DNA from: Deltaproteobacteria bacterium IMCC39524
GTDB lineage: Bacteria > Desulfobacterota > Desulfuromonadia > Desulfuromonadales > BM103
Assembly (NCBI GenBank): GCA_029667085.1
Contig: JARUHJ010000005.1
Coordinates: forward strand, 1-64,000
DNA: 64,000 bases
Reading direction: 5' to 3'
Below are positions 319 to 49,425 of this stretch, piece after piece. Made by a program: the position numbers and the translations under genes. The stretch's first letter is position 1, and each line of letters starts with the position of its first letter. The notes beneath the pieces were generated by a model. It searched no databases. It was not told the origin of the DNA and was given only the letters and a program-made list of their open reading frames with translations.

Positions 319-354
319 CTCATACAGACTTCAATTAATGAGGTCTTTTTTCTC

Positions 355-382
355 TTGACATACCTGACCAAAAAGGTAAGAT
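355..382 (+). promoter_or_regulatory. Sigma-70-like promoter of the small RNA gene
   Basis: TTGACA at 355-360, a 16-nt spacer, and TAAGAT at 377-382. The same block (TTGACATACCTGACCA with an AT-rich -10) recurs at 48969-48996 before the second complete copy. A degenerate version at 3366 keeps the -35 but has no good -10. Confidence 0.6.
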
Positions 383-389
383 ATCAACC

Positions 390-475
390 AGAAGATACTT
401 CTTCATCTTCTACCTCCTAAAAACCCATAGAACCCTTTGCCCTACAGATCACCTCCTGACTGTGGGGCTTTTTTT
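390..475 (+). ncRNA. Candidate small RNA with two CCUCCU motifs
   Basis: From a predicted start near 390 the transcript begins with a hairpin, AGAAGAT (390-396) pairing with ATCTTCT (405-411). A single-stranded ACCTCCT (412-418) and an A-rich linker follow, then the terminator GCCCTACAG (439-447) / CTGTGGGGC (460-468) with seven T. The terminator loop again has ACCTCCT. The copy at 49003-49093 keeps the layout with a changed but still paired 5' hairpin, which supports a structured RNA. CCUCCU in loops is typical of RNAs that bind ribosome binding sites; that function is inference. Confidence 0.55.
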
Positions 476-3156: not shown

Positions 3157-3182
3157 ACCCTCTAACCTCTACTTGCATCTTT

Positions 3183-3262
3183 TTAGCCCCAGCCATCCCC
3201 GGTTGGGGCTTTTTCATTTCCTCAACTCTGTCCCTCTACCCACCCCCGAAGTTTCACCTCAG
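3183..3262 (+). repeat. GGTTGGGGCT terminator + linker (B2)
   Basis: AGCCCCAGCC..CCGGTTGGGGCT with TTTTTCATTTCC ends the receiver-like gene. The linker CAACTCTGTCC, CCCACCCCCGAAG, CACCTCAGGACCGG follows, but the GC-rich core is absent. Confidence 0.8.
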
Positions 3263-3365
3263 GACCGGACATCCCCACTGACCTCTCGCAACACCATTAA
3301 ACAGCTGAACCCACCCCAGTTCACAACCCAAAGAATACCCAAATCCGTGCAGCAATATTTTCCCG

Positions 3366-3460
3366 TTGACATACCTGACCATTTTAGCATGACTTAAGCC
3401 AATAGAACGTACTTCTTCGCGTTCTACGCCTAAGGAAAAATCATAAAAACCGTCGCCCTT
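3366..3460 (+). promoter_or_regulatory. Decayed copy of the small RNA gene, now a possible leader
   Basis: TTGACATACCTGACCA at 3366-3381 matches the promoter at 355. A hairpin AGAACG (3404-3409) / CGTTCT (3419-3424) replaces AGAAGAT/ATCTTCT, so both arms changed together. The later part (CCTAAGGAAAAATCATAAAAACC, split here by drift) resembles the CCTCCTAAAAACCCATAGAACC linker, but the terminator hairpin is lost. Transcription from here would run into the gene at 3496. Confidence 0.4.
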
Positions 3461-3495
3461 ATAAAGCTTACTCATAGAGGGTTAAAGAATCTCCC

Positions 3496-4674: not shown

Positions 4675-5322
4675 TTATCCGCAAGCGCGGCTGGAAGCGC
4701 AGTCCGAGTCTGCACAGTCGACAGCGCCGTCACCGTCGTTGTCCTGGCCATCAGAGCAGGTTTTACCCTTGCCTTCGGAACCGCCCGTGCTCCCACCGTC
4801 GGTGCAAGCCGGATCCTTGCGGCAGTCACGATCGCCGCAATCAACTTTACGATCGCCATCGTTGTCTACGCCGTCATTGCAGACTTCAGGAGAGGTAGAG
4901 GGGCATTGCGCATCACACTCATTGTCAGCACAATCACTCTTGCCGTCACAGTCATTATCGATTCCATCATCACAGACTTCGATTGCACCTGGATTGATAG
5001 CGGAATTAGAATCAACACAATCAACGCTCGTTCCGCAGTTACTTTCCGCAAAGTAATTATCAGCATCAGCGTCGGTACAGCTACCACCACCGCACACATC
5101 AGGACAGAAATAACAAGAGTCATTACCTGAGGTAAAATAACCATCACCACCAGAAGTCAACGGACCGCCACCCTTGGGGTCAACGTGACAAAGACCGCAA
5201 TTATAGCTTGCGCCGCAAGTATCATTGACACCACTTAGCATACTTCTGCGAGCCTGTGCGATAGTAACCATGAACGTAACGCAGAGAAAAACTGTTAAGG
5301 TAATCGTCAGCATCTTCTTCAT
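4675..5322 (-). CDS. Secreted protein with a CxxCH heme motif and MopE-like DxDxDG repeats
   Basis: 215 residues. A signal peptide covers about residues 1-24. A single CGLCH motif at residues 42-46 suggests one covalently bound c-type heme. The rest is Cys- and Asp-rich with repeated units such as CDDGIDNDCDG, CNDGVDNDGD and CSDGQDNDGDG, each followed by DCAD/DC: the calcium- or metal-binding pattern annotated as MopE-type. It is probably outside the outer membrane or on the surface, perhaps in electron transfer or metal binding. A GEMM-type riboswitch lies in its leader, which ties expression to a cyclic dinucleotide. Confidence 0.8.
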   Translation of the reverse strand: MKKMLTITLTVFLCVTFMVTIAQARRSMLSGVNDTCGASYNCGLCHVDPKGGGPLTSGGDGYFTSGNDSCYFCPDVCGGGSCTDADADNYFAESNCGTSVDCVDSNSAINPGAIEVCDDGIDNDCDGKSDCADNECDAQCPSTSPEVCNDGVDNDGDRKVDCGDRDCRKDPACTDGGSTGGSEGKGKTCSDGQDNDGDGAVDCADSDCASSRACG

Positions 5323-5431: not shown

Positions 5432-5538
5432 AAACAAAAAGCCAGGCACCCTGAGAGGGTAACCCGGCTGTCTTAAATTGAAGACCCGTGGCTTTCCGTC
5501 CCCATCTTTCGATGGGTTTGGTATTTTCCTTGATTGGC
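5432..5538 (-). promoter_or_regulatory. GEMM-I cyclic-dinucleotide riboswitch (possible cGAMP variant)
   Basis: Read on the minus strand: ACCAAACCCATCGAAAGATG (P1b stem with GAAA tetraloop), GGGGACGGAAAGCC, ACGGGTCTT, then AAGACAGCCGGGTTACC. These match the GEMM-I aptamer (CAAACC, GAAA loop, GGGACGCAAAGCC, ACGGGTC, AGCCGGGTTACC). The bases before AAACC read ATACC, where c-di-GMP aptamers usually have GGGC; an A at the ligand-contacting G would fit the cGAMP-sensing class known in Geobacter. The 3' aptamer strand (AGCCGGG) can also pair with CCTGGCT before TTTTTG, so ligand binding would block a terminator (ON switch). Confidence 0.75.
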
Positions 5539-19632: not shown

Positions 19633-19710
19633 TGAGGCAAGGTAGTGAACTTGCCGTAGCTACAACGTTGCCCCACAGGCTTTCTCCCTCCTGGCCTGTG
19701 GGGCTTTTTT
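19633..19710 (+). ncRNA. Candidate small RNA, CCUCCU terminator-loop family
   Basis: A 5' hairpin GGCAAG (19636-19641) / CTTGCC (19650-19655), a 14-nt linker, then the terminator GCCCCACAGGC (19670-19680) / GCCTGTGGGGC (19694-19704) with six T. The loop reads TTTCTCCCTCCTG. The plan is the same as at 390-475 and 49003-49093, though this one lacks the linker ACCTCCT. No reading frame fits inside. Confidence 0.6.
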
Positions 19711-19873
19711 ATTTGTCAGGATCTGTAAGATACTCATATTTCAATCAATTTTGCATCATTCAGATAATGCAACAGGATAGATAAGAAGCTTCTCCCTTTG
19801 ACCCATGTTCAAAACTGATGTACTTTGCCAAATATCTTGAATTGCACGGCTTATGATAATCAAGGGAGTTTTA

Positions 19874-38592: not shown

Positions 38593-39336
38593 ATGAAAAA
38601 TATTTTGCTGTTTCTTTCGGCAAGTATTTTATTTGTCTTGGTGACTTCAGGCCTTTCCGTTGCGAAAAACGGCTATCACGATATCGATGCAACCGGCGTG
38701 AAAGCAATGATGGACAAAGACGAGGCGCTTGTTATCTTTCCGTTGAGTCCAATGGAATATGAGCACAAACATATCAAGGGCTCTATCAACATCATTCCGG
38801 CAATGATGGAATATGAGCTGCCTGTCGACAAAAGAAAACCGCTTATATTCTATTGTCTTGGCGTTAAATGCGTTGCTTCCTGGCGAGCGGCTGAGAAAGC
38901 TGTGGAGCTTGGATATGAAAATGTTTACGCCTTCCGAGAGGGTCTCCCCAGTTGGGAGAAAGCTGGCTATCCTTTGGAAAGCACGAATACTTTACCCGAG
39001 GTCGAAGTAAAGAAGATCTCAACTGAAGAGCTATCAAAGCTACTGGATACAGAGGATGTACTCCTGCTTGACATCAACCTCGAAGAAGACGCAAACAAGT
39101 TTCATATCAATCATGCGAAGCGAAAGCATATTCCTCTCGACAATCTTAATGTCAATCTATCGCAACTCCCTAAAAACAAAAAAATTGCGATTATGTGTTT
39201 AAAAGGAAAACGCTCAGAAACCGCAGCAAGATATTTGGTTGGTAAAGGGTATATGCATGTTGTGGTGGTAGAGGGTGGTCTCCAGCAATGGATTCTTGAA
39301 GGACGACCTGTCCAACAGGAGGTTGCGTCCAACTGA
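38593..39336 (+). CDS. Exported protein with two rhodanese-like domains
   Basis: 247 residues. Signal peptide about 1-22 (ILLFLSASILFVLVTSGLSV). Rhodanese domain 1 (about 25-130) has FYCLGVKCVASWRA as its active-site loop, and domain 2 (about 140-240) has IMCLKGKRSETAARYL. Both keep the catalytic Cys, so both may carry persulfide sulfur in the periplasm. Domain 1 has a second Cys in its loop. ATG 38593 has AGGGGGTG upstream. No sulfur gene stands next to it; the substrate is unknown. Confidence 0.85.
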   Translation: MKNILLFLSASILFVLVTSGLSVAKNGYHDIDATGVKAMMDKDEALVIFPLSPMEYEHKHIKGSINIIPAMMEYELPVDKRKPLIFYCLGVKCVASWRAAEKAVELGYENVYAFREGLPSWEKAGYPLESTNTLPEVEVKKISTEELSKLLDTEDVLLLDINLEEDANKFHINHAKRKHIPLDNLNVNLSQLPKNKKIAIMCLKGKRSETAARYLVGKGYMHVVVVEGGLQQWILEGRPVQQEVASN

Positions 39337-46744: not shown

Positions 46745-46888
46745 TTAAACTGGTCAATTAAGTTCTAGAAAAAACTAAATCTACCGAGAAGCTGATACAG
46801 AAGATTGCTGGCATTCAATGAAACATTTGTCGCTTTGTTTTGTTTGCAACTTTAGTGTTTGTTTGATGATTCAATACAGGGGGTTAAC

Positions 46889-47428
46889 GTGACAAAAAGA
46901 GTTTACCTGATAGCTGTATCAATTGTCAGCCTCCTTTTCTTAATAAAGGGAGGGATAGTCCTGTCGCAGGAAGTCACAGCGCCACAAAGTATCCATCAAA
47001 AAGCATCAATATGCTGGGATAACTTCGAGGCCACGTTTTCAGATGAGCCCTTAATCTGTCAGGATGTTTGTGATCGTTGCCATACCTACGCAACAGTAAT
47101 TCCAGATCAGTCTGGAAACCCTGAGGCGGTCACAACTGACAAAGAATACCCAGAAGAACTTGGCGATGGTGTCAACTGGGAGACCATAGGTTTGCTTCAA
47201 CAATCTTGCAAGAGTTGTCACAACGAAGAAATAAAACCAGAGACAAACCACCCAATATTTGTAGAACATGATGCCAATTATTTGGATGATTTCAAGGAAA
47301 CAGAGTTGAAACTGTTTGATGGGCACATACTATGTACGACGTGTCATTCCCCGCACCGTGAAAATGCTGCCCTTTTAAGGGTTCCTAACCTGGGTTCAGG
47401 ACTCTGTATTGACTGTCATATCAAATAA
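46889..47428 (+). CDS. Exported tetraheme c-type cytochrome
   Basis: 179 residues from GTG at 46889 (GGGGG stands 5 nt upstream; a longer frame from 46859 lacks this). A signal peptide (VYLIAVSIVSLLFLIKGGIV) and four CxxCH motifs: CDRCH, CKSCH, CTTCH and CIDCH. Extra His residues (HNEE, HPIF, HSPH) could be distal ligands. It is a periplasmic or outer-surface electron carrier, with the NHL gene about 145 bp upstream. The pattern CTTCHSPHRENAALLR resembles NrfH/doubled-CxxCH families but is not assigned. Confidence 0.88.
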   Translation: MTKRVYLIAVSIVSLLFLIKGGIVLSQEVTAPQSIHQKASICWDNFEATFSDEPLICQDVCDRCHTYATVIPDQSGNPEAVTTDKEYPEELGDGVNWETIGLLQQSCKSCHNEEIKPETNHPIFVEHDANYLDDFKETELKLFDGHILCTTCHSPHRENAALLRVPNLGSGLCIDCHIK

Positions 47429-47444
47429 TTGTTTTAATTCTAGT

Positions 47445-47552
47445 CTCGAAGGCTTGCTGTGACAGGAGGGTCTGAGAGGACCTTCACATCAACCTCCTAA
47501 AATTAGAAGAGTTTGCCCCACAGTCTCTACCTCTTGAGTTGTGGGGCTTTTT
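47445..47552 (+). ncRNA. Candidate small RNA or long 3' end, CCUCCU family
   Basis: A hairpin AGGGTC (47467-47472) / GACCTT (47479-47484), linker with ACCTCCTAAAA (47492-47502), and terminator GCCCCACA (47515-47522) / TGTGGGGC (47540-47547) with five T and loop GTCTCTACCTCTTGAGT. The order equals that of the RNA gene at 390. A possible promoter, TTGACT (47409) and TTTAAT (47433), overlaps the end of the cytochrome gene; it could also be the 3' end of that mRNA. Confidence 0.5.
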
Positions 47553-47559
47553 CTTAAGT

Positions 47560-48556: not shown

Positions 48557-48780
48557 TAAGAAGTGGTTTGGCTAAGATTGTTAAGGGATAGCAACTATTT
48601 ACAAGAAATTAAAACTGAAATGAATCTTATCTCTTTGCAACGAAAGCACTCAAACTAAACCGTTGGCTTTCCTTGTATGTCACAACATTTAGGGAAGGAA
48701 TCCGCGCTCGACAACAGCTTCATACAAAGCCTCTCGCAACTCATTTTCGTATGACCTAAGGATATCCTGGTCACTCACGA
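48557..48780. other. Intergenic stretch, only a very short minus-strand reading frame
   Basis: A 29-codon frame on the minus strand (48689-48778, GTG start, GGAG 7 nt upstream) reads VSDQDILRSYENELREAL and ends VVERGFLP. It may be a gene remnant; evidence is too thin for a gene call. Confidence 0.25.
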
Positions 48781-48870
48781 CCAAGCTCCAGCCACCTCGG
48801 TTGGGGCTTCTTCATTTCCACAAACCGGCCCCCCCCACCCCAAATTTTCACCCCAGGACCAGAACAGGAC
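48781..48870 (+). repeat. GGTTGGGGCT terminator + linker (B6)
   Basis: AGCTCCAGCCACCTCGGTTG then GGGCTTCTTCATTTCCACAA, a C-rich run and AAATTTTCACCCCAGGACC. The core is absent. Confidence 0.7.
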
Positions 48871-48968
48871 CGGACCAGAGAGTCAGCTTTCCAAAATCCC
48901 AGCAAATCAGAGCATTCACGTTCGGAACCCAAAAAACACCAAAAGCGGTGCAGCAATAATTTTTCTTC

Positions 48969-48996
48969 TTGACATACATGACCAAAAAGGTAATAT
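48969..48996 (+). promoter_or_regulatory. Promoter of the small RNA gene at 49003
   Basis: TTGACA at 48969-48974, 16-nt spacer, TAATAT at 48991-48996. Nearly identical to the promoter at 355-382. Confidence 0.6.
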
Positions 48997-49002
48997 ATCA
49001 AC

Positions 49003-49093
49003 CAACAGAACATCAGTTCTTCATTTTTACCTCCTAAAAACCCATAGAACCCGTTGCCCCACTCTCCCCCTCCTGGAAAGTGGGGCTTTTTTT
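49003..49093 (+). ncRNA. Candidate small RNA with two CCUCCU motifs (third copy)
   Basis: A 5' hairpin AGAAC (49007-49011) / GTTCT (49016-49020), a linker with ACCTCCTAAAAACCCATAG (from 49029), then terminator GCCCCACT (49056-49063) / AGTGGGGC (49079-49086) and a T tract; the loop has CCCTCCTGG. Compared with 390-475 the linker is kept while stem bases changed on both sides (CTACAG/CTGTGG to CCACT/AGTGG), which argues for selection on the structure. Confidence 0.58.
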
Positions 49094-49189: not shown

Positions 49190-49425
49190 CGCAGCCTGGA
49201 CGCACAGTGATCAAAGTGAACGCTTGTGCTTCGGGAGCAGGGGGTCGCAAGCTCAAAGCGTGTAATCCCGAGGAGTATTTACAAGGAGCGCCCTTCTAAC
49301 TATGTCGCTCTTGCTTTTGTCCTCCGGTGCGAATCACATCACTTAAGTGACAATTTGATGTCTCAGAAATGTAGACGTGGTGTTCCGGGGCGGGATTTAG
49401 TTCCGGGACTTCTCTGGGGCGTTCT
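49190..49425 (+). repeat. Worn tRNA-Pro 3' half + terminator + core (C7/A10)
   Basis: GCCTGGACGCACAGTGATCA, GTGAACGCTTGTGCTTCGGG and AGCAGGGGGTCGCAAGC (49226-49247), T arm worn, CCA changed to GGA by 49273. GGAGCGCCC..GTCGCTC follows. The core runs from 49328 (ATCACATCACTTAAGTGACA, ATTTGATGTCTCAG, GTTCCGGGGCGGGATTTAG). Confidence 0.7.

Follow-up and report, generated by a model that had tools for sequence, protein, structure and literature searches.

A multi-copy family of predicted small RNAs with an antisense translation start in the Desulfuromonadales

Small RNA units in the window

The stretch of DNA analysed here, in the following called the window, comprises positions 1-64000 of contig C5 in a 3.78-Mb genome of 19 contigs (labelled G000), and it holds several units predicted to encode small RNAs (sRNAs). 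Two of these are of the class termed type A and lie on the forward strand at 387-475 and 49004-49093, with 94.5 and 90.6 bits against the covariance model R1, scores that are not independent since both units are among the 20 type A sequences from which R1 was built. The 387-475 unit consists of a 5′ hairpin (390-411) with a UUCUUC loop, the single-stranded stretch ACCUCCUAA, a linker and a terminator (439-475) with an ACCUCCU loop. Its promoter, TTGACA ... TAAGAT at 355-384 (+), is an exact match to the family pattern and carries an operator-like dyad, TGAC-N7-GTAA, between −35 and −10. The putative promoter-operator of the other copy, at 48969-48998 (+), deviates from the pattern by one mismatch. 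In that copy the usual 5′ stem is broken, with AUUUUU in place of AUGUUCU, and a different structure is predicted.

A type B sRNA is predicted at 47435-47554 (+), about 6 nt past a 189-aa ORF (46859-47428). It has an ACCUCCU linker and the terminator loop CUACCUCUUG, and reaches 96.5 bits with R2, the type B covariance model built from 15 sequences, this one included. The class C unit at 19636-19711 (+) has a different 5′ hairpin and the terminator loop UUCUCCCUCCU, lacks the linker CCUCCU and matches R1 weakly (27.2 bits, E 0.017). A relative of it lies on contig C15 (L078), with 84.6% identity over 292 nt, flanks included. The contig start truncates a further type A copy, of which the 3′ part remains at 1-56 (+; R1 53.5 bits, model positions 37-91) inside a direct repeat of 214 nt and 99% identity (1-214 and 420-633). 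Finally, a decayed type A copy at 3366-3474 (+), recognized by R1 over 3401-3474 (E 5e-4) and by blastn to other units, has kept promoter and hairpin and has lost CCUCC and terminator.

For all four full units, the predicted fold exceeds those of shuffled sequences in stability (z −5.0, −3.5, −2.1 and −4.0, the first two values belonging to 387-475 and 19636-19711). All sites proposed in a previous sequence-only reading (390-475, 19633-19710, 47445-47552, 49003-49093, 1-56 and 3366-3460) were borne out when read individually. The same reading assigned one plan to all copies; a common 3′ module indeed unites them, but the 5′ domains differ and define at least three classes (A, B and C).

The C-rich terminator loop is strand-specific. 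In 464 kb, made up of the window and a 400-kb sample, CCTCC occupies the loop of 8 out of 68 terminator-like hairpins and GGAGG of none, and six of the eight are units of the sRNA family, a count to be read with the window having been chosen for such units. Further C-rich-loop hairpins with T-runs and weak or no R1 signal occur elsewhere in the genome at C1:497704 (−), C1:361094, C9:27312 (−), C2:324313, C11:6826 (−) and C1:261933, and are probably additional classes of the same kind.

The surroundings of the units are rich in repeated sequence. Several type A copies are bordered by remnants of tRNA-Pro (5′ half ...GCGCAGCNTGGTAGCGCACCTGC, 3′ half CTTCGGGAGCAGGGGGTCGCAAGTTCAAATC), in the window at 180-335, 600-660 and 49200-49280 and also at L012, L013 and L014, as if the units sat inside broken tRNA-Pro copies; ARAGORN called no tRNA in the window. 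Between the genes near several units, the blocks CCCCGGTTGGGGCTTTTTCATTTCC and GTGTTCCGGGGCGGGGTTT...CTCCGGGGC recur (720-840, 1700-1815, 2440-2590, 3180-3270 and 48780-48880). Upstream of type B units a block GTGYGCNTTTGCACAGTTC...TTTACGnnnnnCACGTATATT is conserved (L031, L043, L071, L075, L076, L112 and L113), and CCACGTATA of this block is also present at the class C unit at 19633. Terminal inverted repeats of the MITE kind were suspected at the copies and were not confirmed on checking.

Family size, structure and promoters

Thirteen strong type A matches (R1, E<1e-10) and at least six strong type B matches (R2, E<1e-15) were found in the genome, alongside decayed copies and the divergent class C. 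Among the 21 further genomes of its family, at least 17 carry an R1 match at E<1e-8. Within the order, R2 matches at E≤0.001 occur in at least 74 of 136 genomes and R1 matches at E≤0.1, many of them weak, in at least 93 of 136, and the R1 matches at E<1e-8 were located in the families f1, f5 and f17. At class level at least 45 of 277 genomes reach R1 E≤1e-4, six of the 45 being outside the order, and beyond the order the R1 signal is lost. The per-genome match counts of these searches (order-level R1, R2 and class-level R1) are lower bounds, with 31, 26 or 15 candidates scored per genome. Three of the six matches outside the order were read and rejected as members, being terminators at the end of a cytochrome-like gene. 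A weak match to R1 thus does not count as evidence for membership, and matches weaker than about 1e-7 were accepted as members only after reading. Neither an exact core search of viral contigs nor a blastn search of plasmids and phages with window positions 349-475 yielded a match. In family f8, a type A-like promoter (TTGACAATGATGACTTCATTGGTTATAG) is joined to the type B motif TTGTTGTGGCAGGC at four loci (L107, L109, L110 and L111), which suggests that sRNA modules have been exchanged.

The structure was assessed in an alignment (A4) of 101 type A matches (E≤1e-6, 98 distinct) in 100 chosen loci from three families of the order; these are strong matches that were fetched, not every one in the order. 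Among 17 base pairs, 13 changed on both sides in the 101 rows. Cells with changes on both sides numbered 47, as opposed to 9.7 after shuffling and 5-21 after sliding, and 94.3% of cells were paired, in an alignment that was fitted to the model and hence favours covariation. A MAFFT alignment of 20 sequences gave five such pairs and eight cells, where shuffles average 2.0 and 2.2. The changes on both sides of the stem that had been described between the window copies thus recur throughout the 101 aligned matches. The best-conserved unpaired stretches in A4 (87-97%) are the UUCUUC of the first loop, the CCUCCU of the linker and the CUCCU of the terminator loop, and the U-tail (columns 126-130) is conserved in 98-100% of the 101 rows. 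An alternative 5′ hairpin, pairing columns 6-10 with 15-19 of alignment A1, is favoured by some copies and received weaker support than the main one. Features typical of Hfq-type sRNAs are present, namely the stable terminator, the long U-tail and an hfq gene in the genome (Hfq E 3.6e-22).

Type A units also share a promoter, a region that R1 excludes. Out of 98 distinct units two were left out for having too little upstream sequence, and 92 of the remaining 96 match a 30-nt consensus at 18 or more positions; four do not. The spacer bases T11, C14 and G22 are invariant in these 92 promoters and form, together with A13 and T23, the pattern TNAC-N7-GTNA between −35 and −10. Core promoters do not require invariant bases in the spacer. 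With one promoter and conserved spacer bases in 92 of 96 cases, the type A units look like a single regulon. A search of the genome with the operator pattern, allowing up to three mismatches, returned 11 sites compared to none in the control, and 10 of the 11 precede type A units; the search pointed to no other regulated gene. The eleventh site (C13:13395 (−), L053) precedes a hairpin that is degenerate and lacks CCUCC; a gene for a secreted-looking protein lies about 100 nt downstream, and this may be a case of promoter capture.

The symmetry of the dyad is partly supported, in that agreement at most mirror positions is no higher than composition predicts. Genes of an IscR (Rrf2) regulon would have a type 1 site, ATASYYGACTRWWWYAGTCRRSTAT, upstream; the GAC-N7-GT core of the type A dyad agrees with this site, and its N7 spacing is equal. 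Three full-length Rrf2 proteins are encoded in the genome, and nothing convincing was found when an operator-like site was sought upstream of their genes. An IscR-like regulator of the type A units is possible, and less likely than not.

An excess of conservation of orthologous copies over their flanks was not consistently found in same-genus genomes. Identities inside and outside the unit are 118/125 and 731/765 for L056/L088, 110/126 and 665/758 for L066/L155, and 121/125 and 188/216 for L062/L030, and such copies not being clearly more conserved than their flanks argues against a strong functional claim. A terminator block resembling GGCCACC stands upstream in 31 of the 101 rows of A4, and 22 aligned examples have some 165 nt upstream and some 75 nt downstream in common. 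These data bear on the view that the units are ordinary terminators or 3′-UTR ends of neighbouring genes, multiplied along with repeats and devoid of a regulatory role. Copies in duplicated blocks and orthologues that do not clearly exceed their flanks in conservation are in line with it, as are the gene-end terminators among the R1 matches outside the order and the position of the 47435 unit directly beyond an ORF. Ordinary terminators would not be expected to have a conserved promoter of their own or, as in type A, covarying 5′ hairpins. Nor do the 13 type A copies keep a fixed relation to genes, the nearest downstream ORF lying 22-475 nt off, on the same strand in eight cases, on the opposite strand in four and not found in one. 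We consider the terminator explanation very unlikely.

The initial proposal, that sibling sRNA regulators with anti-Shine-Dalgarno (anti-SD) motifs form a multi-copy family, named a covariance model and covarying homologues in relatives as its check, and this check supports it: the matches in the genome and in the other genomes of the family are as given above, the covariation exceeds that of all shuffles, and the signal is lost beyond the order. The shared promoter with its operator-like dyad, the antisense start codon and the division into classes are additions to that proposal. Searches of the open-access literature turned up no such family. We are highly confident that the sRNA family is real, new and large.

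An antisense start in the core and its predicted consequences

Read in reverse complement, the type A core, UUCUUCAUnUUCUACCUCCUAA, gives an ideal translation start, UUAGGAGGUAGAAnAUGAAGAA, with natural spacing: a Shine-Dalgarno (SD) sequence, 5-6 nt, AUG and AAG AA. In the 387-475 unit this virtual start is AGGAGGTAGAAGATGAAGAA, at 399-418 (−), where the opposite ORF is not conserved, and in the 49004-49093 unit, with a shorter virtual spacer of 5 nt, the opposite strand reads AGGAGGTAAAAATGAAGAA at 49017-49035. The spacing in the 23 window ORFs with a strong SD sequence peaks at 6.

This geometry is a property of most type A units. TTC[TC]TCAT was found in 34 of 43 units of a larger pool, which is biased as 25 of its loci had been fetched with the core pattern itself. 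The test was repeated with loci fetched by the terminator pattern alone, and among the 18 units with promoter and terminator obtained in this way, 14 have the motif at 5-7 nt from the anti-SD (spacer 5 in six units, 6 in seven and 7 in one). In A4, an anti-SD lies within the first 50 nt of 90 of 97 full units. The strict motif at spacer 4-8 is present in 64 of these 90, compared to 0.1 on average and at most 2 in left-part shuffles, in a set chosen by R1, whose training units themselves had the core. Some units, 4 of the 18 and 26 of the 90, have lost the antisense start, f17 units among them, and type B lacks an antisense AUG. The stem fixes part of CAT; even so, CAT is retained in the stem-broken 49003 copy, and it is lost in L016 and L098, where the stem is kept.

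A scan of 84,980 species genomes for the core returned 25 stretches, of which 16 are sRNA units that carry the typical terminator, one of them from a MAG titled Shewanella, and nine are real gene starts of the MKK/MKN type. At each of the nine matches outside the order, an ORF of 165-1304 aa begins on the complementary strand (one extends past its stretch), and eight of the nine ORFs look exported, as judged by eye. Since the matches outside the order lie at real gene starts, the core is a natural start site written backwards. Likewise, AGGAGG-N4-8-ATGAARAA occurs at 23 sites in the genome against one in the control; 12 of them lie opposite type A sRNA genes, of which one is decayed, and 7 of the remaining 11 start proteins that look exported, again by eye.

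An antisense start could also mean that the RNA acts on a gene of its own locus, as in type I toxin-antitoxin systems of the Sib/ibs kind, where the sRNA would serve as antitoxin and be complementary to the start of an opposite-strand gene for a small toxic peptide. A perfect SD sequence with ATG is indeed present on that strand at most type A loci, some of which read MKKYLLVDILPFWSGMS.... The opposite ORFs (n=62) nevertheless show no conserved small ORF, as 29 have at most 15 aa, 19 have 16-30 aa and 14 are longer or open; the distance from ATG to promoter falls in all three frames (27, 18 and 15); and the T-run of the terminator and the promoter face the opposite way. Such a toxin-antitoxin arrangement is very unlikely.

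Pairing with mRNAs of other loci was addressed with 416 genes called by a simple script in the window and the 400-kb sample, 199 of them with a strong SD sequence. For three natural cores the mean duplex energy with the 199 strong-SD starts was lower than for versions in which the left part was shuffled and the anti-SD kept; 0, 1 and 0 of 60 shuffled versions were as low, and 1, 2 and 0 of 60 when only the ten best genes were regarded. Pairing by the anti-SD would by itself be unspecific. The best predicted target in the window, with the lowest energy of all 416 genes (−24.1 kcal/mol), is the gene at 4675-5322 (−) for a 215-aa protein (MKKMLTITLTVFLCV...; start AGGAGGAGACACAGA-ATGAAGAAG), and another predicted target, MKNILLFLSASILFV... 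at 38593-39336 (+), ranks fifth (−23.1 kcal/mol). Upstream of the 4675-5322 gene lies a c-di-GMP-I-GGC riboswitch (5454-5531 (−), 68.9 bits), and two RNA controls may meet on this mRNA. According to a home-made rule, 14 of the 49 genes in the best quarter of duplexes are signal-peptide-like, compared to 22 of the other 150 (p=0.034), and among the 41 genes that form the top tenth of the whole set there are 10, compared to 58 of 416 overall. This suggests a weak bias towards exported proteins among the predicted targets, and whether the family controls a regulon of exported proteins is, from these predictions, an evenly balanced question.

The exposed core complements a typical gene start, and the RNAs therefore probably switch off the translation of many proteins at once. 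From the family, its structure, the common promoter, the geometry of the antisense start and the hfq gene, all computed here, we infer how transcription, regulation, targeting and repression may proceed. Each type A gene would be transcribed from its own sigma-70-type promoter, and as the dyad recurs in the type A promoters, a single regulator, probably a repressor and perhaps IscR/Rrf2-like, could release all copies together, with a high dosage from many loci. The resulting RNA of about 90 nt would present a 5′ hairpin with the UUCUUC loop, followed by ACCUCCUAA in single-stranded form, a linker rich in A, a terminator whose loop holds another CCUCCU, and the U-tail. CCUCCU would pair with the SD sequence and UUCUUC with AAGAA(G) past the start codon; the stem would then open, allowing the RNA to pair with as much as about 20 nt of the start region and to exclude the 30S subunit. 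Hfq, encoded in the genome, may assist. The start form expected to respond to the RNA is AGGAGG-N6-ATGAAGAA, and differences in spacer and terminator loop may tune the copies to different mRNAs. The likeliest targets would be strong-SD mRNAs with MKK/MKN starts, perhaps mainly those for exported proteins.

The sequence-only reading had left open whether the RNAs repress translation or act as sponges. A sponge would titrate other RNAs or a protein with its CCUCCU loops and leave mRNA start sites alone, and two C-rich sites per RNA and the many copies would suit this role. Multi-copy CsrB-like sponges exist. The motif, however, spans UUCUUCAU at the spacing of a start site, which a plain C-rich sponge does not need, and the GGA motifs to be expected of a CsrA sponge of the CsrB/RsmZ type are here on the untranscribed strand, the transcribed loops being CCUCC. 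Three CsrB-like sRNAs with GGA motifs have been predicted in Geobacter (PMC11934962). Repression is the better fit and the sponge the poorer one, because the core mirrors the whole start region (SD sequence, spacer, AUG and AAG AA) and not CCUCCU alone; we regard a sponge as unlikely.

We consider it probable that the family consists of trans-acting, multi-copy sRNAs that block translation initiation in a manner similar to LhrC. One may speculate further that the family is a generic silencer of start sites, in which some 20 sRNA genes of one regulon, with a seed antisense to an idealised start, brake exported MKK-type mRNAs as a class, as opposed to a list of individual targets. This extension is possible and falls somewhat short of an even chance. 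If the reading as start-site blockers is right, it would mean that the copies have a common on-switch and that an sRNA can aim at features common to a class of gene starts, in an order where post-transcriptional control is little described.

Comparison with known small RNA families

No Rfam family matches the sRNA sites at threshold, either in the window at gathering thresholds or at 15 loci searched at loose ones. Matches below threshold are to sX13, LhrC, NsiR1 and ncS54, with at best 33 bits (E 0.2, at L101) for LhrC (RF00616; gathering threshold 110) and 22.0 (L001) and 19.9 bits (L010) for sX13 (RF02232; gathering threshold 50). By Rfam score, the family belongs to neither LhrC nor sX13.

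In organization, LhrC of Listeria is similar. It is multi-copy, binds Hfq and binds over the SD sequence of lapB, an envelope-related target, whose translation it impedes (PMC4132741). Several copies and a C-rich motif in both a single strand and the terminator loop are common to LhrC and the present family. LhrC is found in Listeria and controlled by LisRK, whereas the units described here have a seed with an antisense start codon and MKK codons and a promoter with an operator-like dyad. The CcsR or cuckoo RNAs of the Alphaproteobacteria likewise occur in several copies and have CCUCC loops. They are co-transcribed with the DUF1127 gene ccaF1 and then processed (PMC10253847). Type A units have promoters of their own and are probably separate genes.

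The C-rich loops of sX13 of Xanthomonas act on G-rich motifs near translation starts; this RNA has three stable stem-loops with 4C/5C motifs, and an antisense AUG is not described in the portion of the paper at hand (PMC3771888). Nearest in copy number is FopS of Bacteroides, with 14 paralogues that repress the translation of surface transporters, which differs in seed and phylum and is compared here by description (PMC11697453). If the reading of the type A units as one regulon of start-site repressors is true, the family would have more members per genome than the multi-copy families with which it is compared here, the 14 of FopS and the 7 of LhrC (PMC11697453).
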